Assembly (NCBI RefSeq): GCF_000378965.1
Contig: NZ_KB900536.1
Span: forward strand, 1,065,583-1,129,582
Origin: Thioalkalivibrio thiocyanodenitrificans ARhD 1
GTDB taxonomy: Bacteria > Pseudomonadota > Gammaproteobacteria > Ectothiorhodospirales > Ectothiorhodospiraceae
Reading direction: 5' to 3'
Length of the DNA stretch: 64,000 nt
Shown: positions 9,682 to 58,926 of the stretch, in pieces
Layout: each line of letters opens with the position of its first letter
Position numbering within the stretch: the stretch's first letter is position 1
Translations under genes and position numbers: made by a program
The notes under the pieces: model-generated
What the model was told of the DNA's origin: nothing
What the model saw: the letters and a program-made list of their open reading frames with translations, nothing else
The model's database searches: none

Positions 9682-9733
9682 TGCCGCGTCCCACGAGGCT
9701 GTTCACAGGCAAAACCTACGGGGCGCTCGCAGC

Positions 9734-9940
9734 GTAGGAACCCAGTCCCGCGGGCGATCCGGCCCGACACCGGTGGATCATTCTTCGCCCGGGGGACCGG
9801 GCTCCTACGGGAATCCCCCCTCCGTGTAGGAGCCCAGTCCCCTGGGCGATCCGGCCCCACGCCGGTGGATCGTTCTTCGCCCGGAGGACCGGGCTCCTAC
9901 GGGGACCCCACCCAGTGTAGGAGCCCGGTCCTCCGGGCGA
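9734..9940. repeat. Five-unit alternating REP-like (BIME-type) cluster
   Basis: A 24-bp unit, GTAGGAGCCCGGTCCTCCGG plus GCGA in its cleanest copy, occurs five times. Forward copies lie at 9734-9757, 9826-9849 and 9917-9940; inverted copies at 9786-9809 and 9877-9900. Each unit is itself an imperfect hairpin, and spacers of 16-28 bp carry a second conserved word (ccggtggatc). Alternating orientation is the organisation of BIMEs. It follows valS and may act as a 3' mRNA stabiliser or gyrase/IHF site by analogy. Confidence 0.85.
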
Positions 9941-10046
9941 TCCCTTCCACACCGATGCTTCACCCGCCTCCAGGCGCGTCAAAGTGGCCCATTAAAAACA
10001 TCAGACCCGGGTCAAATCGACCCACCACGCCCTGTTTCATGATTTC

Positions 10047-23614: not shown

Positions 23615-23742
23615 GGTCAAAGTTCAAAGTTCAAGGTTCAAAGTTCAAGGAGAGGGTGCCTCGGGTTTTTCCTTTGAACCTTGAACCTTGAACCTTGAAC
23701 CTTGAACCTTGAACCTTGAACTTTGAACTTTGAACCTTGACC
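23615..23742. repeat. Heptad-repeat hairpin between prfC and the DUF3106 gene
   Basis: The left arm at 23615-23650 has five words of GTTCAAA/GTTCAAG type. The right arm at 23671-23742 has ten complementary words: TTTGAAC, six CTTGAAC, two TTTGAAC, then CTTGACC. The arms are therefore unequal (5 against 10). The loop contains 'ggtttttcc'. The right arm ends 17 bp from the stop codon of the DUF3106 gene. Confidence 0.85.
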
Positions 23743-37078: not shown

Positions 37079-37082
37079 AGTG

Positions 37083-37154
37083 GTCAGTTGTCCGTTGTCA
37101 GTGGTCAGTGGTCAGTTGTTTAAAACAACTGACCACTGACAACGGACAACTGAC
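37083..37154. repeat. Near-perfect heptad palindrome between convergent genes
   Basis: The left arm at 37083-37121 and the right arm at 37122-37154 are reverse complements, except that the left arm holds one extra 7-nt word (GGTCAGT). The centre is TTTAAAA. The words are GTCAGTT, GTCCGTT, GTCAGTG. The left arm starts 4 bp after the NarL-type regulator's stop. The right arm's last base is the first base of the S24 gene's stop codon. A 33-bp stem would form in both transcripts. Confidence 0.9.
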
Positions 37155-40665: not shown

Positions 40666-41304
40666 TCAGTCCTCGGCCATGGGGCGGACCGGGCCCGCTT
40701 TGCCGGGGCCGGAGCGGTCGTCGGAGCCCGCCAGCAGGGCATCGAGGGAGGCCGTGTACTTCTCAACGGCCTCCGGGCCCTCGATGGCGACCACCTGGTC
40801 GATGGCCCATTGTCGGTTGGCGGGGCCAAGGGTCTCGCTGACCCATTCGGCGAAGGCCCGCAGCAAGCCGAACCCCGGGCCCTCAACGAGGCTGTACTTG
40901 CACTCCGCATACACGCTGTTGCGCGCGTTCAGCTTCTCTATGAAGGCACGCCGGTAATCCGCCGGCGTCATGTGCTTCTGGTCCTCGGGCGGGCGGTTGT
41001 CCGCGCGATTCTCCTCCACCAGACCTGCCAGGCGCAGTGCCATGGCGGTGATGAAGCGAGCCCGTTCCTCTTCGGTAAACTTGCCGTACACCTGGTGATC
41101 CGTGAGGTGCAGCAGGAAGATCGCAAACTCCTCGATCACGTCGAGGCGTTGATACTGGGTTTGCGTCTCGAACGCCTCGTTCTCGAGATTCAACACGCCG
41201 TTGCATGCCACACGCCAGGCATTGGCGGCGCTCACCGTGGCCACATCCTCCAGGGTGCGGGCACGGTCCCCCTGCTTCCAGCGATTGCGCAGCCGAAGGC
41301 TCAT
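40666..41304 (-). CDS. Conserved hypothetical protein, last gene of the dsr-divergent operon
   Basis: A 212-residue soluble protein, mostly alpha-helical, with no signal peptide or obvious motif. 'DVIEEFAIFLLHLTDHQVYG' and 'ARFITAMALRLAGLVEENRA' are amphipathic helices; 'NSVYAECKYSLVEGPGFGLL' is distinctive. The ATG at 41304 overlaps the DUF3050 stop (ATGA), so it is translated with that gene. The family was not recognised. The C-terminus is Gly/Pro/Asp-rich and probably disordered. Confidence 0.75.
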   Translation of the reverse strand: MSLRLRNRWKQGDRARTLEDVATVSAANAWRVACNGVLNLENEAFETQTQYQRLDVIEEFAIFLLHLTDHQVYGKFTEEERARFITAMALRLAGLVEENRADNRPPEDQKHMTPADYRRAFIEKLNARNSVYAECKYSLVEGPGFGLLRAFAEWVSETLGPANRQWAIDQVVAIEGPEAVEKYTASLDALLAGSDDRSGPGKAGPVRPMAED

Positions 41305-42083
41305 GCCGCCACCTTCAGGCTGGCGCTTACACCATCCCAGAAGCGCAGGCGTGCCTCGATGGCCGCGCGCGCCGCCTCCTCCGCCTCCCGAATCTTCCGG
41401 GGATCGCCGCCGCACAGCATGTCCAGCATGCGAAGCGAGAGCGGGCCATGGGAGCCCTCATCCAGATGAATATGTCGCTGGAGGTAGAGGTGAAACATCG
41501 GTGCATCCTGCTCGGCGATGCCCATACGGGCAAGCAGTGAACGGAACATGCCGGGAATGACGTGCTCGCGGCCCAGGGCGAGCGCCGCGGCCACCACGTG
41601 GGGCCTGCCGGTGCCGATAAAGGCGAAGGTGCTCTTCATGAACTCCACGGACGGCGCCGGCGCGATGCCGGCAGCGAGCGCGGCCTCGATTCCCTCGCTG
41701 GCAGCGAGGTTCACAAAGCGCATCGCCCCCCGGGGGTCGGCACCCAGTTCCGACATGGCGCCGCAATACAGCTCGAAATGACTGAGACAGCGTTCGCCTC
41801 CGTCCGGCCCCGGGATACGGTCGGACTCCTCTTCCAGCACCAGCTCATTGATGAACCGGCACACGGCCGCATCGGGGGCCGGAGTCCAGGGATACCGGGC
41901 CGGGGCGATGTGATGCTGAATGAATTTGAGCAGGGACATGAAATCCCATACCGCGTAGACATGGTGTTCCATGAAGCGGCGAAGGTCGTGGAGATCACCC
42001 AGTCCGTAAACCGGGTGTGCCTCGAGCCGATCGCGCAGGGGCGCGATGATCCCGGGGTCAAAACGGATCGGCTGACTGGACAT
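41301..42083 (-). CDS. DUF3050 protein (heme-oxygenase-like fold)
   Basis: A 260-residue protein. 'LRRFMEHHVYAVWDFMSLLK' is the DUF3050 signature. It also has 'ELVLEEESDRIPG...LSHFELYCGA' and 'YLQRHIHLDEGSHGPLSLRM'. The spaced Glu/His residues match heme-oxygenase-like diiron oxidases, suggesting a non-heme iron O2 enzyme; this is inferred from residue pattern. Start ATG 42083 is chosen by homology style. It lies in the operon running away from dsrA. Confidence 0.8.
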   Translation of the reverse strand: MSSQPIRFDPGIIAPLRDRLEAHPVYGLGDLHDLRRFMEHHVYAVWDFMSLLKFIQHHIAPARYPWTPAPDAAVCRFINELVLEEESDRIPGPDGGERCLSHFELYCGAMSELGADPRGAMRFVNLAASEGIEAALAAGIAPAPSVEFMKSTFAFIGTGRPHVVAAALALGREHVIPGMFRSLLARMGIAEQDAPMFHLYLQRHIHLDEGSHGPLSLRMLDMLCGGDPRKIREAEEAARAAIEARLRFWDGVSASLKVAA

Positions 42084-42225
42084 GGACTCGGCCTCCCGTG
42101 GAGCAATGAATGCCTGGGTCATACATGGAAACGCCGCCTGTCCGGTCACGACCCGGGCAGACGGCGCGAAGGCAAACCGGGTCGGCATGCGCAAACCCGG
42201 GGAGGGAGATCACCCTCCGGTCATC

Positions 42226-42429
42226 TTACCGGCGGGAGCCCTTTTCCTCGTGGGCGATGTCCACCAGTTCCATGGCGATATCGCGGTACTTCTGACGATA
42301 CGCATGCAAGGGGTGACCTTCGGGGGCCAGATAATACTCCTCGGGCTCGACGCCATTGGCATGTTCGTACTCGATGAACTTCTTCTGCATCTCGAGCATC
42401 TGCTTGATCAGTTCCTGCTTCTTGCTCAT
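42226..42429 (-). CDS. Small helical protein in the dsr-divergent operon
   Basis: A 67-residue protein opening 'MSKKQELIKQMLEMQKKFIE'. It continues YEHANGVEPEEYYLAPEGHP and ends with 'KYRDIAMELVDIAHEEKG'. It is two helices joined by a Pro/Tyr loop, likely soluble. ATG 42429 has GGAGG 11 nt upstream; the longer ORF to 42804 only reads the intergenic repeat. The family was not recognised. Confidence 0.7.
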   Translation of the reverse strand: MSKKQELIKQMLEMQKKFIEYEHANGVEPEEYYLAPEGHPLHAYRQKYRDIAMELVDIAHEEKGSRR

Positions 42430-42664: not shown

Positions 42665-43006
42665 TCAATATCCGCCCTTGCGGCGGCTCTCCGGCAGGCC
42701 GGCGATCCGGCCCCCCTGCTTGCTGGGATCCAGCGGGAAGAGGTCATAGATAGTCTTCGCGTCGACGCTCTTGTCATCCCACTTGGCCTGCATGGCCTTG
42801 ACAATGGTACGGGTATTGGGCTGATTCTCGTTGTTGTTGATGTACTCGTCGCGCAGATAATGGATCAGATCCCAGTGCCGCTCGGTCAGTTCGATACCTT
42901 CCTTGGCCGCGATGGCCTCGGCCACCTTCTCGCTCCAGTCACCGATGTCCTCCAGGTACCCCTTGTCATTGGTCTCAATGGTGACCCCATCCACTTCCAG
43001 ACTCAT
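42665..43006 (-). CDS. DsrC/TusE-family protein lacking both C-terminal cysteines
   Basis: A 113-residue DsrC-fold protein. The N-terminus 'MSLEVDGVTIETNDKGYLED' and 'LTERHWDLIHYLRDEYINNN' align with DsrC. The C-terminal arm, which in DsrC ends 'KQACKYAGLPKPTGCV', here reads 'SKQGGRIAGLPESRRKGGY'. Both redox Cys are gone, so it cannot carry a persulfide or trisulfide. Such Cys-free members have been proposed as regulatory (RspA-type). It is co-directional with the Cas6-like gene. Confidence 0.9.
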   Translation of the reverse strand: MSLEVDGVTIETNDKGYLEDIGDWSEKVAEAIAAKEGIELTERHWDLIHYLRDEYINNNENQPNTRTIVKAMQAKWDDKSVDAKTIYDLFPLDPSKQGGRIAGLPESRRKGGY

Positions 43007-43071: not shown

Positions 43072-43761
43072 TCAGCTTCCCTGCTTGCCCTGCACCGGGG
43101 CGACATCCTTGTGGCCTATGAACAACCCGCAGCCCATGAGCCGCCGCGGCCCGATCCCGGCACGCTGAAGCAGCACCGAGGAATACGGGTCCAGGTCGGC
43201 CACCATGAGGCTGCGCGTGAATACCTCGCCCTCGGGCGTATGCAGCACATGACTGCGGCCGCACAGCAGTTTTGACACCGGCACATCCAGCTCCCGCAGA
43301 TGCCGGGCCGCCTCACGCAGAAAGTCCTCCTCGTCCTGTGTCGCCCGGGCCACCACATAGCGGGCCAGCAACGCCGGCTGAGGCTGCAGGGGGATCACGC
43401 TCGCCTCGCCAAGGCTGAGTTCGAAGCCATCCAGGTCGAACCGCTGCCCGGCCAGGTCACGGGCATTCTCCAGGCGGTGCCGGGGCAGGCGCAGGCGAAA
43501 GCGGGCCCGGCGGGAGAGATGCAGCACATCGTGCTCCGGATCCTGCGGACGGTACCAGCCATTGCCGGATTCCGCCCCGTGGATCAGGTGGATACCGGCA
43601 TGCTCCTCGTCCTCCAGCCAGGGCAGCACCCGGCGCACCGCGCTGGACAGGGCATAGGCGTGGTCCAGAGGCAGGCAGCGGCAGTCGATGCGGTAGGACA
43701 CATCGACCACGTCATCGGGCAACTGCTCGACTCCGGTTTGCGGCATTTCATCCCAGTACAT
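43072..43761 (-). CDS. Orphan Cas6/Cmx6-like RNA endonuclease-family protein
   Basis: A 229-residue protein matching the MYXAN-type Cas6 (Cmx6) pattern. It has 'CRCLPLDHAYALSSAVRRVL' with the conserved His, 'GIHLIHGAE', 'LHLSRRARFRLRLPRHRLEN' and the C-terminal glycine-rich loop 'GIGPRRLMGCGLFIGHKDV'. Cas6 proteins cut CRISPR RNA hairpins. No CRISPR array or other cas gene is in the window, and the gene sits between sulfur-oxidation genes. Whether it keeps nuclease activity is unknown. Confidence 0.8.
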   Translation of the reverse strand: MYWDEMPQTGVEQLPDDVVDVSYRIDCRCLPLDHAYALSSAVRRVLPWLEDEEHAGIHLIHGAESGNGWYRPQDPEHDVLHLSRRARFRLRLPRHRLENARDLAGQRFDLDGFELSLGEASVIPLQPQPALLARYVVARATQDEEDFLREAARHLRELDVPVSKLLCGRSHVLHTPEGEVFTRSLMVADLDPYSSVLLQRAGIGPRRLMGCGLFIGHKDVAPVQGKQGS

Positions 43762-43773
43762 ATGCGTACATCC

Positions 43774-43965
43774 CTATGACATGGGTGAAGTGAACGCCGC
43801 CTCGATCTGCTCCTCCCAGTCCGGAGGTGTATCCGGAAAAGGCGGCTTCACGTCGGAACTCAGGAATCGCTCGCCCTCCCGGGCGCGCTGGCGCACGAGT
43901 TCCAGCAGTTCCTGGAAGGACTGCAGGTCGTGATTCTGCATCAGGACTTCACTCAACCAGAGCAT
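43774..43965 (-). CDS. Small acidic protein in the dsr-divergent operon
   Basis: A 63-residue protein, 'MLWLSEVLMQNHDLQSFQEL' then a charged helix and a Pro-rich end ('SDVKPPFPDTPPDWEEQIEA'). ATG 43965 follows TGAGGA, 10 bp after the TauD-like stop; a longer start at 43989 would overlap that gene. It is 12 bp upstream of the Cas6-like gene, so probably co-translated. The family was not recognised. Confidence 0.7.
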   Translation of the reverse strand: MLWLSEVLMQNHDLQSFQELLELVRQRAREGERFLSSDVKPPFPDTPPDWEEQIEAAFTSPMS

Positions 43966-43975
43966 GGTATTTTCC

Positions 43976-44920
43976 TCAGGTTCCGGCAATCCGGTCCAGA
44001 TATCGGGCCCGGTAGATCAGCCGTTGGTGACCCCCGCCGGCATCATCCCTGAACCCGGTGCGCGCATGCAGGACGTTGTTGCATACCACGCCCTCACCGG
44101 GGCGCAGCCGGTAGCGCAGGATATCCGGATTGTCGTCCCCGCCGAGCAGTTCCCGGATGCGCGCGGCCGCGGCCCGGGTGGGCCCGTCGTCCCGCCACCG
44201 GATATTGCGGAGCCTCGCCGTGTAGCGCATGTGAAGCCGGCCGCTGGCCGGGTCGACACTGAAAACCGGACCGCTCTGGGCCTCCCGCAGGGTCTCGCCG
44301 TTGACCACGTTGGGGGGAATGGTGAAGGCCCGGGGGTGGCTCAGTGCCTCGATCCAGGCCGGATTCTCGTCGCGCAGGCGGATATAGAGCAACTCGTGAT
44401 CCATGTAGGCGTTCTCGCCCCCCTCCGGGGCATCGGAGACACAATGCAGCAGCATGGCCCGGATACGCCTGTGGGGCGGGTTGTAGTAGCCGTCACAGTG
44501 CCAGCTGAGCGGGCGGTCGGTATAGGGAATGTACTCGCCCTGAGGGCCGCCCGGGGTCACGCGCAGTTCACTGACCCCGTCCTCTTCCGCGCACAGGTTG
44601 TTGTCCAGTCGGACCAGACCCAGAGCCGCGGCGAAACGCCTCACCTGGCCCCGGTCCATTGCCCGCCCCCCGTCACTGCAGCGATAGAACACCATATTAA
44701 AGCGCGATACCCGCTCCAGAAGAGCCGCGCGCTCCGCCGCCGTCAGGTCTTCGGGGTTGCCCACGGGGACCATCAGGCGTTCCGGCTCGAGGAGACCGCC
44801 GGCCAGTTTGGTCTCCCGCCATCGCCTGTACGCCCGATCCTCCGTCAGGAGAAACGGTGAAACGCCGGAGAACGGGGTCTCGGGCAGGCGGTCCACGGCA
44901 GTTGCGGAATTCGTCGTCAT
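43976..44920 (-). CDS. TauD/TfdA-family 2-oxoglutarate/Fe(II) dioxygenase
   Basis: A 314-residue oxygenase. The Fe-binding HxD is in 'SWHCDGYYNPPHRRIRAMLL'; the distal His is in 'GEGVVCNNVLHARTGF', with the 2-oxoglutarate Arg in 'QRLIYRARYL'. 'EGGENAYMDHELLYIRL' is also family-typical. It is the first gene of the operon transcribed away from dsrA. The substrate is unknown; a sulfonate or a small sulfur compound would fit the setting but is not shown. Confidence 0.85.
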   Translation of the reverse strand: MTTNSATAVDRLPETPFSGVSPFLLTEDRAYRRWRETKLAGGLLEPERLMVPVGNPEDLTAAERAALLERVSRFNMVFYRCSDGGRAMDRGQVRRFAAALGLVRLDNNLCAEEDGVSELRVTPGGPQGEYIPYTDRPLSWHCDGYYNPPHRRIRAMLLHCVSDAPEGGENAYMDHELLYIRLRDENPAWIEALSHPRAFTIPPNVVNGETLREAQSGPVFSVDPASGRLHMRYTARLRNIRWRDDGPTRAAAARIRELLGGDDNPDILRYRLRPGEGVVCNNVLHARTGFRDDAGGGHQRLIYRARYLDRIAGT

Positions 44921-45423
44921 GGGGTCTGGAAAATCTCAATGACCTGGGGGTTGAGTATCCGATCGGGTGCCGCCGGGGAATCGCCGCGCACCGAACCGCC
45001 CCGGTCACCGGACGCAGTGTAGTGTCCTGCATCGGATGCACAACACTCCATCCGGGATAGGCAGGGACCCGCGCGGCAGCGGCGCATCGCACATTATAAC
45101 GCCACCCGCCCGACCTGGCCCGGGCCACTTCCGGGGATCGACGGCCCGGGTTCACGGGCCGATGCGGGAACGTCCTGTCCGGCCGCTTTGCGCCTATCCC
45201 GAGAGGGATATGCGGGGCCAGGAGTTCCACCCCAACGGTAGGGTGTTCTCCTCGCGGTGCCCCACCTAGAGTCTACCGCAGCACAAAAAGGGGGTCGGCG
45301 AACATGCCAGATCCCGGAACAGACCCGGACAGGGTCAAGGCTGTATCGCGAAGTGACTGGTTATATCCTAAAATAACAGGTTACACAGCAAACCCTGTCC
45401 CCAGCATCCGAAAGGAGATCGTC
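44921..45423. promoter_or_regulatory. Divergent control region between dsrA and the TauD-like gene
   Basis: These 503 bp between two start codons face the main dsr operon and the satellite operon. The part next to dsrA (45345-45400) is AT-richer ('ggttatatcctaaaataaca') and likely holds the dsr promoter. AAAGGAG precedes the dsrA ATG. An in-frame ATG at 45304 is rejected as dsrA start because it lies inside this region. The TauD-like side is GC-rich and carries a 27-bp dyad. Confidence 0.6.
45021..45047. promoter_or_regulatory. 27-bp palindrome upstream of dsr, candidate operator
   Basis: AGTGT-CC-TGCATC-G-GATGCA-CA-ACACT: two nested perfect inverted repeats (5 bp and 6 bp) around one central base. 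It lies about 100 bp upstream of the TauD-like start and 377 bp upstream of the dsrA start. A smaller dyad, CCGGT-C-ACCGG, is at 45001-45011. It is well placed to control either or both operons. Confidence 0.55.
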
Positions 45424-46695
45424 ATGGCCAAGAACCAGCACCCAACCCCCATGCTCGACGAGTTGGAGAACGGCCCCTGGCCGAGCTTCATCTCCGGCAT
45501 CAAGCGTCTTCGCGACGAACACCCTGACGAGCGCATCCAGGGCGTCACCAACGACCTGCTGGGCCAGCTCGAGCACTCCTATGAAACGCGCAAGGGCTAC
45601 TGGAAAGGTGGCACCGTGTCCGTTTTCGGCTATGGCTCCGGCATCATTCCGCGCTTCTCCGAAGTGGCCAAGGCCTTCCCGGAGTCCCGCGAATTCCACA
45701 CGGTCCGCGTGCAGCCGCCGGCCGGCAACTTCTACACCACCGACATCCTGCGCCAGCTGACCGATTCCTGGGAGAAGTACGGCTCCGGGCTGATCACCTT
45801 CCACGGCCAGACCGGCAACGCCATGTTCATCGGCGTAAACACCGAGAACACCCAGGCCTTCTTCGACGAGATCAACGAGTACGGCTTTGACCTCGGCGGC
45901 GCCGGCCCCTGCGTGCGCACCGGCATGTCCTGCGTGGGCGCAGCCCGCTGCGAGCAGTCCTGCGCCAACGAGCAGCGCATCCATCGCACCCTGCTGAACC
46001 GGTTCACCGACGACGTGCATCGCCCGTCCCTGCCCTACAAGTTCAAGTTCAAGGTCTCCGGCTGCCCCAATGACTGCGTGAACTCCATCGAGCGTTCCGA
46101 TTTCGCAATCATCGGCACCTGGCGCGACGACATGAAGATCGATCAGGCCGAAGTCAAGGCCTTCATCGAGAAGAAGGGCCGTGACTATGTCATCGACAAC
46201 GTCACCACCCGCTGCCCCACCAACTGCATGACCCTCAATGACGATGACACCCTCACCGTCGACAACAGCAACTGCGTGCGCTGCATGCATTGCCTGAACG
46301 TCATGCCGAAAGCACTCTCCCCCGGCGACGACAAGGGCGTCACCATCCTGGTGGGCGGCAAGCGCACCCTCAAGATCGGCGACCTGATGGGCACCGTGAT
46401 CGTGCCGTTCATGAAGCTCGAGACCGAAGAGGACTACGAGCAGCTGACCGAGCTGGCCGAGAACATCATCGAGTTCTGGGCAGAGAACGGTCTGGAGCAC
46501 GAACGCTGCGGCGAGATGATCGAACGTATCGGCCTGGTCAACTTCCTCAAGGGCATGGGCATCGAGGCCGATCCCAACATGGTCAACCATCCCCGTGAGA
46601 GCTCCTACATCCGCATGGACGAGTTCGACGAGGCTGCAGAGCAGTACCTGCGCCGCAAGATGGAAGAGAAACAGAAGCGGTCGGCGGCCAACTGA
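45424..46695 (+). CDS. dsrA: Reverse dissimilatory sulfite reductase subunit alpha
   Basis: A 423-residue subunit that, as DsrAB, oxidises DsrC-bound sulfur to sulfite in the cytoplasm. Siroheme/4Fe-4S ligands lie in 'SCVGAARCEQSC' (C-x5-C) and 'SGCPNDCVNS' (C-x3-C). A ferredoxin domain has 'TRCPTNCMTL' and 'CVRCMHCLNVMPKAL'. ATG 45424 follows AAAGGAG. Sequence style and the surrounding dsrEFH/dsrL genes mark the oxidative (reverse) type. Confidence 0.97.
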   Translation: MAKNQHPTPMLDELENGPWPSFISGIKRLRDEHPDERIQGVTNDLLGQLEHSYETRKGYWKGGTVSVFGYGSGIIPRFSEVAKAFPESREFHTVRVQPPAGNFYTTDILRQLTDSWEKYGSGLITFHGQTGNAMFIGVNTENTQAFFDEINEYGFDLGGAGPCVRTGMSCVGAARCEQSCANEQRIHRTLLNRFTDDVHRPSLPYKFKFKVSGCPNDCVNSIERSDFAIIGTWRDDMKIDQAEVKAFIEKKGRDYVIDNVTTRCPTNCMTLNDDDTLTVDNSNCVRCMHCLNVMPKALSPGDDKGVTILVGGKRTLKIGDLMGTVIVPFMKLETEEDYEQLTELAENIIEFWAENGLEHERCGEMIERIGLVNFLKGMGIEADPNMVNHPRESSYIRMDEFDEAAEQYLRRKMEEKQKRSAAN

Positions 46696-46746: not shown

Positions 46747-47826
46747 ATGGCACAGGCACAGGCAATGCGTCCGCCCATCGAATCGGGATGCCCGGACGGC
46801 TTCCAGTACATGCATCCGGTCATGCGGCGCAATTTCGGCATGTGGAAATGGCACGATCATCCCCGCCCCGGCGTTCTGCGTCACGTGGCCGAGTCGGGCG
46901 AACAGGTCTGGACGGTCAAGGCCGGCACCCAGCGCATCCTCGACGTGTTCACCCTCCGCAAGCTTTGCGATATCGGTGACAAGTTCGCGGACGGCTATGT
47001 CCGCTTCACCATCCGCTCGAACATCGAGTACATGGTGGACGACGAGGCCAAGGTGGAAGCGCTGATCAAGGCCCTTGAGGACGCCGGCTTCGTGGTGGGC
47101 GGCACCGCAAACTCCATCTCCATGATCTCCCACACCCAGGGCTGGCTGCACTGCGACATCCCCGGCACCGACGCCTCCGGCGTGGTGAAGGCGATGATGG
47201 ACGAGTTGATCGACGACTTCCGCAACTGCAACATGCCCAACCGGGTGCACATCACCACTTCCTGCTGCCAGATCAACTGCGGCGGCCAGGGTGATATCGC
47301 GATCAACGTGCAGCACACCAAGCCGCCGAAGATCAACCACGACCTGGTGGCCAACGTGTGTGAGCGTCCTTCCGTCGTTGCCCGTTGCCCGGTGGCGGCC
47401 ATCCGCCCCGCGCTGGTGAACGGCAAGCCATCCCTGGAAGTGGACGAGAAGAAGTGCATCTGCTGCGGCGCCTGCTATCCCCCCTGCCCGCCCATGCAGA
47501 TCAACGACGCCGAGCACACCAAGCTGGCCATCTGGGTCGGCGGCAACCACTCCAATGCCCGCGGCAAGCCCACCTTCCAGAAGCTGGTGGCCTCCGGCAT
47601 CCCCAACAACCCGCCGCGCTGGCCCGAGGCCACGGCCATCGTCAAGAACATCCTGAAGACCTATCAGAAGGATGCCAAGGATTGGGAGCGGATCAACGAC
47701 TGGATCGAGCGGATCGGCTGGCCCGAGTTCTTCGAAAAGACCGGTCTGCCCTTCACGCGCTTCCACGTGGAGAACTGGCGCGGCGCGCGTAACAGCCTGA
47801 ACGCCTCGACCCATATCCGCTTCTGA
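46747..47826 (+). CDS. dsrB: Reverse dissimilatory sulfite reductase subunit beta
   Basis: A 359-residue partner of DsrA. 'TTSCCQINCGGQGDIAINVQ' and 'VCERPSVVARCPVAAIRPA' give siroheme-associated cluster ligands. The ferredoxin insert is 'KKCICCGACYPPCPPMQIND'. It starts 51 bp after dsrA with 'gcaggag' upstream. The pair forms an alpha2beta2 enzyme carrying sirohaem amide, for which cysG and dsrN in this window supply the cofactor. Confidence 0.97.
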   Translation: MAQAQAMRPPIESGCPDGFQYMHPVMRRNFGMWKWHDHPRPGVLRHVAESGEQVWTVKAGTQRILDVFTLRKLCDIGDKFADGYVRFTIRSNIEYMVDDEAKVEALIKALEDAGFVVGGTANSISMISHTQGWLHCDIPGTDASGVVKAMMDELIDDFRNCNMPNRVHITTSCCQINCGGQGDIAINVQHTKPPKINHDLVANVCERPSVVARCPVAAIRPALVNGKPSLEVDEKKCICCGACYPPCPPMQINDAEHTKLAIWVGGNHSNARGKPTFQKLVASGIPNNPPRWPEATAIVKNILKTYQKDAKDWERINDWIERIGWPEFFEKTGLPFTRFHVENWRGARNSLNASTHIRF

Positions 47827-47860
47827 TCAGTCTTGCAGGAGACGGAATAACGAGACCCAC

Positions 47861-47887
47861 CCCTCGGGGCCCGCGCGGCCCCGAGGG
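47861..47887 (+). other. Perfect hairpin between dsrB and dsrE
   Basis: CCCTCGGGGCC at 47861-47871 pairs fully with GGCCCCGAGGG at 47877-47887 around a 5-nt CGCGC loop. It has no following T-tract. This stable 11-bp stem separates dsrAB from dsrEFH and could limit read-through or protect the abundant dsrAB message. Confidence 0.75.
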
Positions 47888-47913
47888 CTCGATAGCCACA
47901 GGACAGTTCAAGC

Positions 47914-48306
47914 ATGAAATACGGCATACTAGTCAACGAGGGGCCTTACCAGCACCAGGCGGCCGACACGGCCTACCAGTTCTGCAAGGCAGCCATCGAT
48001 CGCGGCCACGAAGTCTTTCGTGTGTTCTTCTACCATGACGGCGTGAATACCGGCACCCGGTTCGGCGTGCCCCCGCAGGACGATCGCAATATCACCACGC
48101 GCTGGGCCGAACTGGCCGAGGCGCACAACATCGACATGGTGATCTGCATCGCGGCGGCCCAACGCCGTGGCATCCTCGACGAAGGCGAGGCCAAGCGCCA
48201 GGGCAAGGACGGCCATAATATCGCACCCGGTTTCCGCATCTCCGGTCTCGGCCAGCTCATCGAAGCGGGCATCCAATGCGATCGGCTGGTGGTCTTCGGG
48301 GATTGA
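47914..48306 (+). CDS. dsrE: Sulfurtransferase subunit DsrE
   Basis: A 130-residue subunit of the DsrEFH hexamer that passes sulfane sulfur to DsrC. The active cysteine in 'NIDMVICIAAAQRRGILDEG' is residue 78, the same position as the essential Cys78 of Allochromatium vinosum DsrE. 'FRVFFYHDGVNTG' is typical of the family. Presence of DsrEFH marks sulfur oxidation rather than sulfate reduction. Confidence 0.95.
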   Translation: MKYGILVNEGPYQHQAADTAYQFCKAAIDRGHEVFRVFFYHDGVNTGTRFGVPPQDDRNITTRWAELAEAHNIDMVICIAAAQRRGILDEGEAKRQGKDGHNIAPGFRISGLGQLIEAGIQCDRLVVFGD

Positions 48307-48394
48307 CCGCGCGCGGTGATCGATGACCCGCACGGGTGGGGCACCATGGCCTGCCCGTGTCAACGGCAACATCAAGTCTCTAAGGTGAACGAAA

Positions 48395-48787
48395 ATGTCC
48401 GAACCCTGGGAAGAAGAAGGCCCTGGTGAAATCAAGAAGTTCATGTACGTCAACCGCAAGGCGCCGTACGGAACCATCTACGCCCTCGAATCCCTCGAGG
48501 TGGTGCTGATCGCCGCCGCGTTCGAGCAGGATGTCAGTCTGGCATTCATCGACGACGGGGTGTACCAGATCAAGAAGGGCCAGGACACGCAGCAGATCGG
48601 GATGAAGAACTTCTCTCCCACCTATCGTGCCCTGGAAGGCTATGACGTGGAGAAACTCTACGTGGAAGCCGAATCCCTGGCCGAGCGTGGCCTGACCGAA
48701 GATGACCTGCTTGTGCCCGTCGAGGTGATGGCGCGCGAAGACCTCGCCCGCCTCATGGACGAGCAGGACGTGATTCTGAGCTTCTGA
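48395..48787 (+). CDS. dsrF: DsrEFH complex subunit DsrF
   Basis: A 130-residue DsrE/F-fold subunit (TusC-like). 'KKFMYVNRKAPYGTIYALES' followed by 'VVLIAAAFEQDVSLAFIDDG' is the family core, and it has no cysteine at the DsrE position. It starts 88 bp after dsrE and ends 10 bp before dsrH. Its role in the complex is mainly structural by comparison with TusBCD. Confidence 0.93.
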   Translation: MSEPWEEEGPGEIKKFMYVNRKAPYGTIYALESLEVVLIAAAFEQDVSLAFIDDGVYQIKKGQDTQQIGMKNFSPTYRALEGYDVEKLYVEAESLAERGLTEDDLLVPVEVMAREDLARLMDEQDVILSF

Positions 48788-48797
48788 GGAGCCCACT

Positions 48798-49106
48798 GTG
48801 AGCATGCTGCATACCGTGAACAAGTCGCCATTCGAGCGAAACACACTCACCGCCTGCCTGGGGCATTCCCTTCCCGACTCCGCCGTGCTGCTCATCGAGG
48901 ACGGCGTGTTCGCCGCCATGCGGGGCACCACCCACGAGAACGATGTGCGTGAAGCCACGAAGGACCGCAAGGTCTACGTGCTCGGTCCCGACCTCCTCGC
49001 CCGGGGTCTGGCCGCCGACAAGGTCATCGACGGCATCGAGGTAGTTGATTACGAGGGCTTTGTCGAACTGACAGAGAAACACGACAAGGTGCAGGCCTGG
49101 CTCTGA
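48798..49106 (+). CDS. dsrH: DsrEFH complex subunit DsrH
   Basis: A 102-residue TusB-like subunit. It starts at GTG 48798 (MSMLHTVNKSPFERN) with 'tgaggag' upstream; ATG 48804 is an alternative. The cysteine in 'NTLTACLGHSL' is residue 20 from the GTG, the position of the conserved DsrH Cys20. It is the third gene of the sulfur-relay trio. Confidence 0.93.
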   Translation: MSMLHTVNKSPFERNTLTACLGHSLPDSAVLLIEDGVFAAMRGTTHENDVREATKDRKVYVLGPDLLARGLAADKVIDGIEVVDYEGFVELTEKHDKVQAWL

Positions 49107-49161
49107 CGACCCGGGACCCTTCAACCGACGACACTGAAACGACAGCAGGAGGAATTACCAA

Positions 49162-49494
49162 ATGCCAATCGAAGTAAACGGCAAGACGTACGAGACCGAC
49201 GAAGAAGGCTACCTGGCCAATCTGAACGACTGGAACGAGGACCTGGCCAAGGCCATGGCCGAGGCCGACGGCACGACGCTCGATGAGAACCACTGGGAGG
49301 TGATCAACTTCCTGCGTGAGTACTACGAGGAATATCAGATCGCGCCCGCGGTGCGCGTGCTGACCAAGGCGATCGGCAAGAAGCTCGGTGCGGACAAGGG
49401 CAACAGCAAGTACCTCTATGAGCTGTTCCCCTACGGTCCGGCCAAGCAGGCGTGTAAGTACGCCGGCCTGCCCAAGCCCACCGGCTGCGTGTAA
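49162..49494 (+). CDS. dsrC: Sulfur carrier protein DsrC
   Basis: A 110-residue carrier whose flexible C-terminal arm holds two redox cysteines, Cys98 and Cys109, ten residues apart in 'AKQACKYAGLPKPTGCV'. It accepts sulfur from DsrEFH and presents it to DsrAB; the resulting trisulfide is handled by DsrMKJOP. An AGGAGG ribosome site suggests strong translation. Compare the Cys-free paralogue at 42665. Confidence 0.97.
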   Translation: MPIEVNGKTYETDEEGYLANLNDWNEDLAKAMAEADGTTLDENHWEVINFLREYYEEYQIAPAVRVLTKAIGKKLGADKGNSKYLYELFPYGPAKQACKYAGLPKPTGCV

Positions 49495-49511
49495 GTCACC
49501 AGTGGTTCCGG

Positions 49512-49543
49512 ATCCGGGTGGAGCTGCATCGCTTCACCCGGAT
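49512..49543 (+). other. Hairpin between dsrC and dsrM
   Basis: ATCCGGGTGGAGC at 49512-49524 pairs with GCTTCACCCGGAT at 49531-49543 over 13 bp, one pair being G-U, around a 6-nt loop. It is followed by 'tcttgact', a weak T-rich end. It lies 18 bp after dsrC and could allow partial termination, giving more dsrC than dsrM mRNA. Confidence 0.7.
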
Positions 49544-49564
49544 TCTTGACTGGAGGAAGCCCTC

Positions 49565-50311
49565 GTGTCGTTCGCGACCGTGTTCTTTGCTTTGCTCTTT
49601 TACGCGGCCACCGCGATCCTCCTGATCGGGGTAGGTATGCGCATCGCGCAGTATGCCCGTGCGCCGGCGCCGCTGAAGATACCCACCACTCCGGCCCCCA
49701 CGACCCGGTCCGGGGTTGTTCTCCGCATGGCCTCCGAAGTGGTGTTCTTCCATAGCCTGTTCAAGGCGAACAAGTGGATATGGATCCTGGGCTGGGCCTT
49801 TCATCTGGGCCTCCTGCTGGTTCTGCTGCGTCACCTCCGGTACTTCACGGAACCCGTATGGACCTGGGTGGCGCTCATACAGCCCTTTGGCATATACGCG
49901 GGCTTCGCGATGCTTGCCGGGCTGCTGGGCCTCTGGGCAAGGCGTCTGTTTGTCGAACGGATCCGCTACATCTCGTCTCCCTCGGATCACCTGATGCTGA
50001 TTCTGCTCATCGCCATTGCCGCCAGTGGGCTGGCCATGAAGTACATCTGGCATACCGACATTACCGCAGTGAAGATGTTCTTCCTGGGTCTGATGCGCTT
50101 CGAATTCCATCCGTTGCCCACCGAGCCCCTGCTGCTGGTGCATCTGCTGCTGGTGGCGGTCCTGATGATCATCTTCCCGATCAGCAAGCTCCTGCATGCA
50201 CCGGGCCTGTTCTTCAGCCCCACGCGCAACCAGGTGGACGACTCCAGGGAACGCCGGCATGTGACCTGGATATCCGGTGCCGAGAAGCCCGCGGCACAGA
50301 CTGAACGATAA
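49565..50311 (+). CDS. dsrM: DsrM membrane cytochrome b subunit
   Basis: A 248-residue NarI-like membrane protein of the DsrMKJOP complex. Five or six hydrophobic spans are visible (near residues 3-24, 72-90, 98-118, 140-158 and 185-205). Histidines in 'GWAFHLGLLLVLLRHLRYF' and 'PLLLVHLLLVAVLM' are candidate heme b ligands. GTG 49565 has GGAGG upstream. It exchanges electrons between quinone and DsrK. Confidence 0.92.
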   Translation: MSFATVFFALLFYAATAILLIGVGMRIAQYARAPAPLKIPTTPAPTTRSGVVLRMASEVVFFHSLFKANKWIWILGWAFHLGLLLVLLRHLRYFTEPVWTWVALIQPFGIYAGFAMLAGLLGLWARRLFVERIRYISSPSDHLMLILLIAIAASGLAMKYIWHTDITAVKMFFLGLMRFEFHPLPTEPLLLVHLLLVAVLMIIFPISKLLHAPGLFFSPTRNQVDDSRERRHVTWISGAEKPAAQTER

Positions 50312-50351
50312 CGCCCGGCGACATATCAAGCCCGCCGCGAGGACCGACACG

Positions 50352-51842
50352 ATGGCCGATTTTGAAACACCTGAGGTCAAGGAGTACCTGGAGATACCGG
50401 CGCTCAAGCAGGGCGTGATGTCTCACAGCAAGCCGTTCGTCTCCAAGGAGCAGTTCCAGGAGCCCCTGGGATTCCCGGGCGAGCTGGTGGAGAACTGGCA
50501 GCAGGTGGCCGTGGACAAGCTCGGCGAACTGCTCAAGACCAACCGCGGCCTGCGGGTGTTCATGGACTCCTGCGTGAAGTGCGGTGCCTGCACCGACAAG
50601 TGCCATTACTTCCTCGGGACCTCCGACCCGCGCAACATGCCGGTTGCCCGCCAGGACCTGCTGCGCGGCGTCTATCGTCGTTACCACACCCTTCCGGGCA
50701 AGCTCTTCCCCAAGCTGGTCGGTGCCATGGACCTGACCGAAGAGGTGCTGGACCAGTGGTACAGCTACTTCCATCAATGCTCCGAGTGCCGGCGCTGCTC
50801 CGTGTACTGCCCCTACGGCATTGACACCGCCGAGGTCACCATGGCGACCCGGGACATCATGAATGCCATCGGCAAAGGGCAGAAGTACAGCAACGAGATC
50901 ATCGGCAAGGTCTTCAAGATCGGCAACAACCTGGGTCTGCCCGAACCCGCGCTGGCCGACACCCTCGAGGGGCTCGAGGAAGAGGTCAAGGAAGACACCG
51001 GCGTGGACGTGCGCTATCCCCTCGACGAGAAAGGCGCCGAGGTACTGCTGGTGACCCCATCGGCGGACTTCTTCGCCGAGCCCCACGTGGACGGGCTCAT
51101 CGGCTATGGCAAGGTATTCCACCAGGCCGGCATTTCATGGACGCTCTCCTCGCACGCCTCGGAGGCAGCCAACTTCGGCGTGTTCATCGGCTCGATGGAC
51201 AACATGAAGCGCATCGCCATGCGCATTCGCGAGGCGGCGCTGGATCTGGGCGTCAAGCGCATCGTGTTCGGCGAATGCGGTCATGCATGGCGGGTGGCCT
51301 ACAGCTTCCTGAACACGCTTGCCGGGCCCTTCGATTTTCTCGATCCGCGCTATCCGGTGCCACAGCATATCTGCGAGGTCACCTACGATCTTATCCAGCG
51401 CGGTGTCCTGACACTGGACAAGAGTGCCAATGATCATCGGCGGGTCACCTTCCACGACTCCTGCAACGTGGCCCGCGCCTCGCGCATGGGTGACATGCCG
51501 GGCGGGCAGTTCGTGATCCCGCGCGAGATCATCAAGGCGGTGTGCAACCACTATTACGACATGGCCCCCGAGACCATCGGCGAGGCCACCTACTGCTGCG
51601 GCGGAGGCGGCGGTCTGCTCACCGACGATCTCATGGAGTTGCGCGTCAAGGGGGCCCTGCCCCGCATGCAGGCACTCAGGGAGGTGACCGAGGAGAACGG
51701 CGTGACGCACCTGGCGGCCATCTGCGCCATCTGCAAGAGCCAGTTCTCGAAGGTCCTGCCCTATTACGGATTCCAGATGGACCAGATCGTGAGCGTGCAC
51801 CAGTTGGTGAGTGACGCCATCGTGATGGCCCCGAGACAGTAG
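50352..51842 (+). CDS. dsrK: DsrK HdrD-like iron-sulfur protein
   Basis: A 496-residue catalytic subunit facing the cytoplasm. The two 4Fe-4S sites are 'CVKCGACTDKC' and 'CSECRRCSVYC'. CCG-type motifs follow: 'FGECGHAWR', 'FHDSCNVAR' and 'ATYCCGGGGGL', which in HdrD build the non-cubane cluster that acts on disulfides. It is expected to reduce/oxidise the DsrC trisulfide or disulfide. ATG 50352 is chosen over an ORF opening at 50277 inside dsrM. Confidence 0.95.
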   Translation: MADFETPEVKEYLEIPALKQGVMSHSKPFVSKEQFQEPLGFPGELVENWQQVAVDKLGELLKTNRGLRVFMDSCVKCGACTDKCHYFLGTSDPRNMPVARQDLLRGVYRRYHTLPGKLFPKLVGAMDLTEEVLDQWYSYFHQCSECRRCSVYCPYGIDTAEVTMATRDIMNAIGKGQKYSNEIIGKVFKIGNNLGLPEPALADTLEGLEEEVKEDTGVDVRYPLDEKGAEVLLVTPSADFFAEPHVDGLIGYGKVFHQAGISWTLSSHASEAANFGVFIGSMDNMKRIAMRIREAALDLGVKRIVFGECGHAWRVAYSFLNTLAGPFDFLDPRYPVPQHICEVTYDLIQRGVLTLDKSANDHRRVTFHDSCNVARASRMGDMPGGQFVIPREIIKAVCNHYYDMAPETIGEATYCCGGGGGLLTDDLMELRVKGALPRMQALREVTEENGVTHLAAICAICKSQFSKVLPYYGFQMDQIVSVHQLVSDAIVMAPRQ

Positions 51843-51903
51843 ACAGAAGCGACCTATTCGAACTATCAGGCCCGACGGCCCGATTTGACCAGGAGAGTAA
51901 GGC

Positions 51904-53850
51904 ATGGCGACTTCCAGCGATGACATGAAACTGACGTTCCGCAAGTTCCGGGACGGGGATCACGAACGCCGCAGCTGGAAAGAGGCGATCTTCGAGGGAG
52001 ACCACTCCCACAAGTGCCCCGTTTACGTGCACCGCACGCCGCCCTGTCAGGGATCCTGCCCCTCCGGCGAGGATATCCGCGGCTGGCTGCAGATCGTGCG
52101 CGGTATCGAGAAGCCGCCGGCCGATCTGAGCATGCAGGAATACGCCTTCCGCCGTCTGACCAGCGCAAACCCCTTCCCCTCGGTGATGGGGCGCGTCTGT
52201 CCGGCCCCGTGCGAGTCCGGCTGCAATCGCAATGAAGTGGAAGACTTCGTCGGCATCAACTCCGTCGAGCAATACATCGGCGACACCGCCTATGCGGAGA
52301 AGTTTGAGTTCGAGAAGGCCCCTGCCCTGTCCGGAAAGCGGGTGGCCATCATCGGCGGCGGCCCCGGCGGCATGTCGGCCGCCTACCACCTGCGCCGTCG
52401 CGGCCATGCCTCAACCATCTTTGACGACCACGAGGAACTGGGCGGCATGATGATGTACGGCATCCCGGAGTACCGGGTGCCGCGCGAGCGCCTGCGCCAC
52501 GAGGTCAAGCGCATCCTGGATCTGGGCGACATCGATGTGCGCCTCAAGACCCGCGTCGGCAAGGACGTGAGCATGGAGGACGTTGAGAAGGAATTCGACG
52601 CCGTGGTCTGGGCGGTGGGCTGTCAGACCGGCCGCAAGTTGCCGGTACCGGGCAGCGAAGCGCCCAATTGCATCACCGGCGTGGAGTTTCTCGAGGCCTT
52701 CAACACCGGCCGTATCCAGGTGCTGAGCACCGACAACATCGTCTGCGTAGGCGGCGGCGACACCTCCATCGACGTGGTATCCGTGGCTCGCCGCCTCGGC
52801 AGAATCGAGGCCGAGAACGTCACTGACCACCCGGAGGACATGATTCACGGCTATGTCGCTCACGACAGCGTGGCCAGCGCGATGCGCACCGGCGCCACCG
52901 TGACGCTGACCTCGCTGTTCCCCAAGGAAAAGATGACTGCGGCCGAACACGAGGTGCATGATGCCCTCCATGAGGGCGTGAGCATTCTCGACGGCGTGAT
53001 GCCCGTCGAGGTCGTGCTCAACGACGAGGGCCGCGCGGTTGGGCTGAAGATGGCCAAGTGCGAGTTCGAGGGCAACGCGCCCAAGCCCGTGGAAGGCACC
53101 GAGTTCGTGCTTGAGGCCAGTCTGATCATTTCGGCCATCGGCCAGGGCGGCAACCTCACCGGCCTTGAAGCCCTGGACAACGGCCGCGGCTTCATCGACA
53201 CCGACAAGTTCTACCAGGTCCCGGGCAGGGAAGGTCATTTCGTGATCGGCGACATCATCCGCCCCCACCTGCTGACCACGGCCATCGGCCACGGCGCCAT
53301 CGCGGCCGATTCCATCGACCACTTTCTGCGCCGTGAAGAGCCCATCAAGCGCCCGCGCGTGGATGTGCACCACTTCAACCTGCTCGGCAAGCTCCAGGAA
53401 TTCGGCCTGGAGCCGCCCACCTACGCCGGTGGGGAAACCTGGGGTACCTCCGAGGGCGAGTTCGCGGTGCACAACTACGAGGACCGCTCGTTCCAGGAGA
53501 TCGTCTCCCACGAGAAGCTCTTCAAGGGGCACTTCCCCTATACCCCGCGCAACAAGCGCAGTGAACACGGCCCCGGCGCCGACGAGGTGATCGGGCATTT
53601 CGAGGAGCGCATGGACTGCCTCAGCGAAGAGCAGGCCGTCGAGGAGGCCAAGCGCTGCATGAGCTGCGGCATGTGCTTCGAGTGCGACAACTGCGTGATC
53701 TACTGCCCGCAGACGGCCGTGTTCCGTGTGCCCAAGAAGCAGTCCGCCACGGGCCGCTATGTGGACACCGATTACGCCAAGTGCATCGGCTGCCATATCT
53801 GTGCCGAAGTGTGTCCCACCGGCTACATCGACATGGCCATGGGTGAGTAG
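51904..53850 (+). CDS. dsrL: DsrL iron-sulfur flavoprotein NAD(P)H oxidoreductase
   Basis: A 648-residue protein linking rDsrAB to NAD(P)H. N-terminal Fe-S cysteines are in 'CQGSCPSGEDIRGWL' and 'RVCPAPCESGCNRNEV'. The FAD loop is 'VAIIGGGPGGMSAAYHLRRR' and the second Rossmann site 'IVCVGGGDTSIDVVSVARRL'. A C-terminal ferredoxin domain has 'CMSCGMCFECDNCVIYC' and 'CIGCHICAEVC'. DsrL is essential for sulfur-globule oxidation in purple sulfur bacteria. It is absent from classical sulfate reducers. Confidence 0.95.
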   Translation: MATSSDDMKLTFRKFRDGDHERRSWKEAIFEGDHSHKCPVYVHRTPPCQGSCPSGEDIRGWLQIVRGIEKPPADLSMQEYAFRRLTSANPFPSVMGRVCPAPCESGCNRNEVEDFVGINSVEQYIGDTAYAEKFEFEKAPALSGKRVAIIGGGPGGMSAAYHLRRRGHASTIFDDHEELGGMMMYGIPEYRVPRERLRHEVKRILDLGDIDVRLKTRVGKDVSMEDVEKEFDAVVWAVGCQTGRKLPVPGSEAPNCITGVEFLEAFNTGRIQVLSTDNIVCVGGGDTSIDVVSVARRLGRIEAENVTDHPEDMIHGYVAHDSVASAMRTGATVTLTSLFPKEKMTAAEHEVHDALHEGVSILDGVMPVEVVLNDEGRAVGLKMAKCEFEGNAPKPVEGTEFVLEASLIISAIGQGGNLTGLEALDNGRGFIDTDKFYQVPGREGHFVIGDIIRPHLLTTAIGHGAIAADSIDHFLRREEPIKRPRVDVHHFNLLGKLQEFGLEPPTYAGGETWGTSEGEFAVHNYEDRSFQEIVSHEKLFKGHFPYTPRNKRSEHGPGADEVIGHFEERMDCLSEEQAVEEAKRCMSCGMCFECDNCVIYCPQTAVFRVPKKQSATGRYVDTDYAKCIGCHICAEVCPTGYIDMAMGE

Positions 53851-58864: not shown

Positions 58865-58870
58865 AAGACT

Positions 58871-58926
58871 GTCAGTTGTCAGTTGTCAGTTGTCAGTTGT
58901 CAGTTGTCAGTTGTCAGTTGTCAAAG
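58871..58926. repeat. Direct heptad repeat between convergent genes
   Basis: Seven perfect copies of GTCAGTT at 58871-58919, then a degenerate GTCAAAG. They begin 6 bp after the stop codon of the PKHD hydroxylase gene. Unlike the other elements this is a pure direct repeat with only short flanking complementarity (AGACT/AGTCT). The copy number is a likely site of slippage. Confidence 0.9.

Follow-up and report, generated by a model that had tools for sequence, protein, structure and literature searches.

A widespread non-CRISPR variant of the Cas6 family is linked to the reverse-Dsr genes of gammaproteobacterial sulfur oxidizers

Exapted cas genes are known and include Cas1 (casposases) and some others. 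For a Cas6 kept outside CRISPR as the obligate companion of an energy pathway, no report was found in open PMC text. The closest described systems are those of type I-B/Myxan Cas6b (Cmx6), of type I-B CAST Cas6 and of archaeal Cas6. The type I-B Cascade of Synechocystis sp. PCC 6714 co-purifies with a crRNA of ~71 nt (PMC11096372).

The dsr-linked Cas6-family protein analysed here, Cas6x, shares with Cmx6 the family model, a similar length, His34, Arg91 and the G-loop. Unlike Cmx6, it has no cas3, cas8, cas7, cas5 or cas1 beside it and no array, it carries features of its own (H217-K218, E144, K164, R183 and an ESGNGW insert), and it falls into a separate clade. The CAST Cas6 (8fcj/8fcu) is the best structural and sequence match of Cas6x (26% identity, phmmer E 2e-12), but it is part of a transposon Cascade and has an Asn aligned at the conserved His. 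The archaeal structures 3qjj, 3pkm and 5yi6 have the same Cas6 fold (Z 14-16), but their identity to Cas6x is ~10-12% and their context is CRISPR. Cas6x is a new, widespread, non-CRISPR variant of the known Cas6 family.

In the window, by which we mean the whole stretch of 64 kb that was analysed, the open reading frame of Cas6x takes up exactly the region that a sequence-only reading had assigned to a Cas6-family protein (Table 1). It starts with ATG and codes for 229 aa. The assignment was borne out by scores above the curated cut-offs of NCBIfam TIGR02807 cas6_cmx6 (130.8 bits, cut-off 98.85) and Pfam PF09559 (215 bits, cut-off 26.7), and PADLOC Cas6 models also match. The motifs pointed out in that reading, LPLDHAY with His34, RFRLRLP with Arg91 and the G-loop GIGPRRLMGCGLF, are all present. 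The AlphaFold model is confident (pLDDT 87, pTM 0.83) and aligns end to end with Cas6 structures. Its best match is 8fcu_B, the type I-B CAST Cas6 (Foldseek E 2e-16; rmsd 2.4 A over 196 residues; VIA Z in Table 1), followed by many other Cas6 structures. Model and conservation together display the double-ferredoxin (RAMP) fold of Cas6 with its C-terminal G-rich loop. By family model and fold, Cas6x is a Cas6-family protein. Its nearest named relatives are from a Thioalkalivibrio sp. MAG (95% identity), T. denitrificans (77%) and T. sulfidiphilus (74%).

Cas6x is part of a minus-strand block with the order TauD-like dioxygenase, sp71, Cas6x, TusE2, 67-aa protein, DUF3050 protein and orf249, which runs divergent from dsrA, B, E, F, H, C, M, K and L. 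Synteny was compared in 117 locus records with 104 distinct dsr-clade proteins, some of the records being the same genome from two collections. In ~100 distinct homologues, the operon of Cas6x also contains a TauD-like dioxygenase, a conserved protein of 61 aa and a paralogue of DsrC that lacks cysteines. TusE2 adjoins Cas6x in ~98 of the 117 loci and sp71 does so in 101, including loci where dsr is no longer near, while tauD is found directly opposite dsrA in 78. Searches of Pfam and NCBIfam gave no match for sp71 and none for the 67-aa protein. Both are small and strongly conserved families found along with the dsr locus, sp71 having the pattern ML.LSE...DVRPPFPDTPEDWEDRLEAAF and the 67-aa protein the pattern MSKKQE...MQKKFIEYEHANG. 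Cas6x and sp71 are separated by a gap of at least 700 nt in 32 loci. Inspected gaps contained a further helical gene of ~230 aa from no known family (e.g. L055:3767-4450), which occurs in many gammaproteobacterial MAGs and not in Thioalkalivibrio.

Table 1. Features of the Cas6x block and of the divergent dsr operon (positions in the window).
Feature	Position	Strand	Evidence or remark
orf249, conserved protein, end of block	40666..41304	-	tblastn matches in many loci; no Pfam hit
DUF3050 (haem-oxygenase-like) protein	41301..42194	-	PF11251 277 bits; close relatives only
67-aa conserved small protein (MSKKQELIKQMLEMQKKFIEYEHANG...)	42226..42429	-	similar ORF adjoins Cas6x in L137 and L059
TusE2, DsrC/TusE-family paralogue	42665..43006	-	PF04358 119 bits; directly downstream of Cas6x
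Cas6x, dsr-linked Cas6-family protein	43072..43761	-	TIGR02807/PF09559; model m89691518dbd1 vs 8fcu_B, VIA Z 23.9
sp71, small conserved protein	43774..43965	-	directly upstream of Cas6x
TauD/TfdA-type dioxygenase, first gene of divergent operon	43976..44920	-	PF02668 70 bits
Palindrome TATCCC-N4-GGGATA, operator-like DNA element	45195..45210	.	between divergent tauD and dsrA promoters
dsrA, first gene of divergent reverse-Dsr operon	45424..46695	+	TIGR02064 627 bits
dsrB, E, F, H, C, M, K, L	46747..53850	+	sequence recognition and conserved synteny (36 and 117 loci)
dsrB-dsrE intercistronic hairpin, weak candidate RNA target	47827..47913	+	mean z -2.9, 25 loci
dsrC-dsrM intercistronic hairpin, weak candidate RNA target	49495..49564	+	mean z -3.1, 40 loci

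The dsr linkage was followed through whole genomes. PF09559 occurs in 32 of 96 related genomes and DsrA in exactly the same 32, while neither is found in the other 64 (Fisher p 3e-26, a statistic that ignores shared ancestry). One of the 32 (G044) was counted as dsrA-positive from the first 17 dsrA residues at a contig end, which adjoin Cas6x. In a sample of 398 genomes from the phylum, PF09559 was detected only in five, and these are the five Gammaproteobacteria with DsrA; among the DsrA-positive genomes of other classes in that sample it was found in 0 of 48. As rDsr works without Cas6x in those classes, Cas6x is not a core enzyme of the pathway. The gene neighbourhoods agree with this. In five rDsr loci from a different class of proteobacteria, dsrABEFHCMKL are present and most have tauD and/or sp71 beside dsrA, but Cas6x and TusE2 are absent from all five. 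The position of tauD next to dsrA thus recurs in rDsr loci that have no Cas6x, and we conclude that tauD and sp71 are a wider feature of rDsr. Cas6x and TusE2, for their part, look like gammaproteobacterial additions rather than core enzymes.

When one genome per species was considered, at least 577 loci carried the C-terminal signature GCG[LIV]F[ILV][PG]HK together with confirmed homology. From these, 80 loci were fetched, which come mostly from gammaproteobacterial sulfur oxidizers and MAGs. One of them (L119) carries an archaeal label, most likely because the MAG was mis-binned. The fragmented genome that holds L065 (G001:C526), a second and divergent Cas6x-dsrA locus, shows 5% contamination, and this locus probably stems from a contaminating species. 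Carriage by viruses or phages was rejected, as no relative was found.

In Thiotrichaceae and a few others, Cas6x is encoded at a distance from dsr, and sp71 usually remains beside it (L109, L125, L126, L135, L151, L054, L061, L059, L137). Three such genomes were checked (G055, G078, G088), and dsrA is still present on another contig. These loci bear on the idea that Cas6x is a mere passenger, the remnant of a vanished CRISPR locus that lies next to dsr by chance and moves with it. Passive inheritance of gene order is possible and rDsr clusters may move as blocks. However, Cas6x is kept in 32 of 32 dsrA-positive relatives and also where dsr is no longer nearby. Its dN/dS is ~0.1 for most close pairs (0.09-0.20; one pair 0.40), comparable to that of TusE2, and 23 columns are invariant among 58 homologues. 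Purifying selection on Cas6x is strong. Selection and co-occurrence data refute the passenger explanation, which we find hardly credible.

The sequence-only reading had spoken of a Cas6-family protein without CRISPR. This holds for the window, where no CRISPR-like repeat array was found within the 64 kb, but not for the host genome as a whole, in which two CRISPR systems were located through cas1. A type I-G locus with ~89 repeats lies ~237 kb from Cas6x (G000:C1 1338909-1345410 and following) and codes for Cas4g/Cas1g, Csb2, Csb1, Csx17 and Cas3g. A type I-E locus with ~22 repeats is found on another contig (G000:C2 226268-227578 and following) and codes for CasE and CasC. With two arrays in the genome, Cas6x might serve CRISPR systems at other genomic sites by processing their crRNA in trans. 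However, each host system encodes its own Cas6 function (Csb2, a Cas5-6, for I-G and CasE for I-E) and therefore does not need Cas6x. In addition, the frequency of cas1 does not differ between genomes that have Cas6x and those that lack it (12 of 32 versus 23 of 64, p 1.0), and the single-contig Cas6x genomes G065, G080 and G090 have no cas1. DevR-family Cas7, which accompanies CRISPR-linked Cmx6, was found in none of the 96 related genomes. Service in trans is largely refuted by these observations and must be regarded as very improbable.

Neither cas genes nor arrays were found in 36 Cas6x loci, so that Cas6x is encoded with neither Cas effector genes nor a cognate array. Cas6x is not a CRISPR crRNA nuclease, since it lacks the genomic surroundings by which such an enzyme is defined. 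It co-occurs with the rDsr pathway and not with CRISPR. That it tracks dsr regardless of CRISPR suggests a function in sulfur metabolism and not in immunity.

The residues expected of an RNA-binding Cas6 have been retained. His34, the putative catalytic residue, is found in all 100 dsr-linked Cas6x sequences and in seven of eight CRISPR-linked Cmx6, the eighth having a gap at this position. Among dsr-linked Cas6x there is no variation at Arg85, Arg91, Arg134 or the Gly-Cys-Gly of the G-loop, and the G-loop residues G202, G204, G210, C211 and G212 are conserved. Directly after the G-loop, His217 and Lys218 occur in 100 of 100 dsr-linked sequences. CRISPR-linked Cmx6 do not share them, nor do they share E144, K164, R183 and the insert ESGNGWxRP. 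Four divergent members come from other gammaproteobacterial families. All four have K218 and three have H34 and H217, while the putative catalytic His has been lost in one divergent member, L083.

A quick ML tree was computed with 104 distinct dsr-clade proteins and eight Cmx6 from the CRISPR side, all of them cyanobacterial. It separates dsr-linked Cas6x from cyanobacterial Cmx6 (SH-aLRT 99), a split that calls for caution because sampling on the CRISPR side is thin, comes from cyanobacterial plasmids and shows long branches. Seven of the eight cyanobacterial Cmx6 adjoin cas genes; the one from Gloeobacter (L220) has no annotated cas neighbours within the stretch read. The sequence-only reading had asked whether the catalytic residues persist and whether the dsr-linked homologues form a clade of their own. 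Both are the case in the sampled set, with the cyanobacterial Cmx6 as the comparison. That reading had also named a position inside CRISPR-linked Cmx6, combined with a cognate array in the same genome, as speaking against it; Cas6x is not nested there, and the host arrays belong to the I-G and I-E systems.

We consider it fairly probable that gammaproteobacterial sulfur oxidizers have domesticated a CRISPR-free Cas6 subfamily as an accessory of the reverse-Dsr pathway. The counts for dsrA (32/32 versus 0/64) and for cas1 (12/32 versus 23/64) strongly support a domesticated, dsr-linked Cas6, as proposed earlier from the sequence. Since the His, the G-loop and the fold are retained, RNA binding is predicted and would most likely be the activity of Cas6x, with cleavage possible. 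The protein would then bind a specific structured RNA and perhaps cut it via His34, possibly also with His217/Lys218. It may act together with TusE2 or under its control, and might thereby tune the expression of dsr or of another RNA that is linked to sulfur flux.

TusE2 is the fixed partner of Cas6x. It matches the same family models as TusE and DsrC (PF04358/TIGR03342) but has neither of the two conserved cysteines, and in an alignment with DsrC its C-terminus reads ESRRKGGY in place of KPTGCV. Cysteine-less members of the TusE/DsrC family have been called RspA. Six genes of the DsrC/TusE family are present in the host genome, and the dsr operon's own dsrC accounts for just one of them. The penultimate Cys of DsrC has been described as strictly conserved (PMC3397948). 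We favour an RNA-binding role in regulation or processing that would be coupled to sulfur flux, because of this cysteine-less DsrC-like partner, because DsrC is reported, in work cited in PMC5944118, to bind DNA upstream of dsr, and because TusE acts at tRNA thiolation (PMC3397948).

Alternatively, Cas6x and TusE2 might act on tRNA, where they would separate the Dsr relay from tRNA thiolation or link the state of tRNA to sulfur flux. TusE normally passes sulfur to MnmA on tRNA, the TusE/TusBCD relay is homologous to DsrC/DsrEFH (PMC3397948), and TusE2, whose gene is adjacent to that of Cas6x, has lost both relay cysteines. However, rDsr bacteria of other classes manage without Cas6x, and we hold a function on tRNA to be rather improbable.

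Between the divergent tauD and dsrA promoters, a palindrome was detected (Table 1), which in most loci lies ~190-290 nt before dsrA. It is exact in 23 of 76 tauD-dsrA intergenic regions (0 expected), and when up to two mismatches are allowed there are 116 sites versus 7.1 expected. The host genome has this single copy, in several relatives another copy lies towards tauD, and four rDsr loci of the other class lack the element. Because it is upstream of the dsrA start site, as placed by our reading of the -10 box, and because its substitutions are strand-symmetric, we interpret it as an operator and not as an RNA hairpin. Given its position between the two divergent genes, joint regulation of the Cas6x and dsr operons is likely.

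Candidates for an RNA target of Cas6x were sought in the dsr operon. A target in the dsr leader was rejected, since the 200 nt before dsrA fold unremarkably (mean z -0.75). The dsrB-E and dsrC-M hairpins fold strongly (Table 1) but were rejected as Cas6x-specific targets, as they also occur in rDsr loci without Cas6x. An Rfam search gave nothing above the gathering score. Taken together, folding of the dsr leader and intercistronic regions and the Rfam search revealed no RNA element specific to Cas6x.

This result would fit a Cas6x that has lost RNA function and whose RAMP fold acts as a structural or regulatory binding partner of TusE2, sp71 or one of the Dsr proteins (DsrEFH, DsrC, DsrAB), with the conserved His and Lys serving this interaction or a small ligand. 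The constant company of a cysteine-less DsrC paralogue and sp71 is compatible with such a role, as are the invariant H217, K218 and E144 and the ESGNGWxRP insert, all foreign to CRISPR-linked Cmx6. However, His34, Arg91 and the GxG...GCG of the G-loop are invariant or nearly so, and pure scaffolds usually lose these. We regard a pure protein-binding role as unlikely.

A more specific form of the RNA-binding interpretation, which we consider possible but doubtful, is that Cas6x is an active endoribonuclease whose substrate would be the polycistronic dsr mRNA, with the dsrB-E and dsrC-M hairpins as examples of where it might cut. Under the control of the cysteine-less DsrC paralogue, it would set the ratio of DsrC to the rest. 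If true, a CRISPR RNase would have become a regulator that acts post-transcriptionally on a major pathway of the sulfur cycle.

The NCBIfam model would name Cas6x a CRISPR protein in hundreds of genomes from sulfur oxidizers, and CRISPR inventories and Dsr gene lists may therefore both be wrong there. As a cysteine-less DsrC protein shares the Cas6x operon in most loci, the function of such proteins becomes a testable question.

The window contains repeats of other kinds. Rfam miRNA matches at 37084-37153 were rejected because they overlap short tandem repeats. Arrays of 7-bp tandem repeats (TTGAACC and TGTCAGT types) were found at 1988-2034, 23674-23740, 37079-37119 and 58870-58923. At 9730-9943 there are ~2.3 copies of a GC-rich tandem repeat of 92 nt that has internal inverted symmetry.
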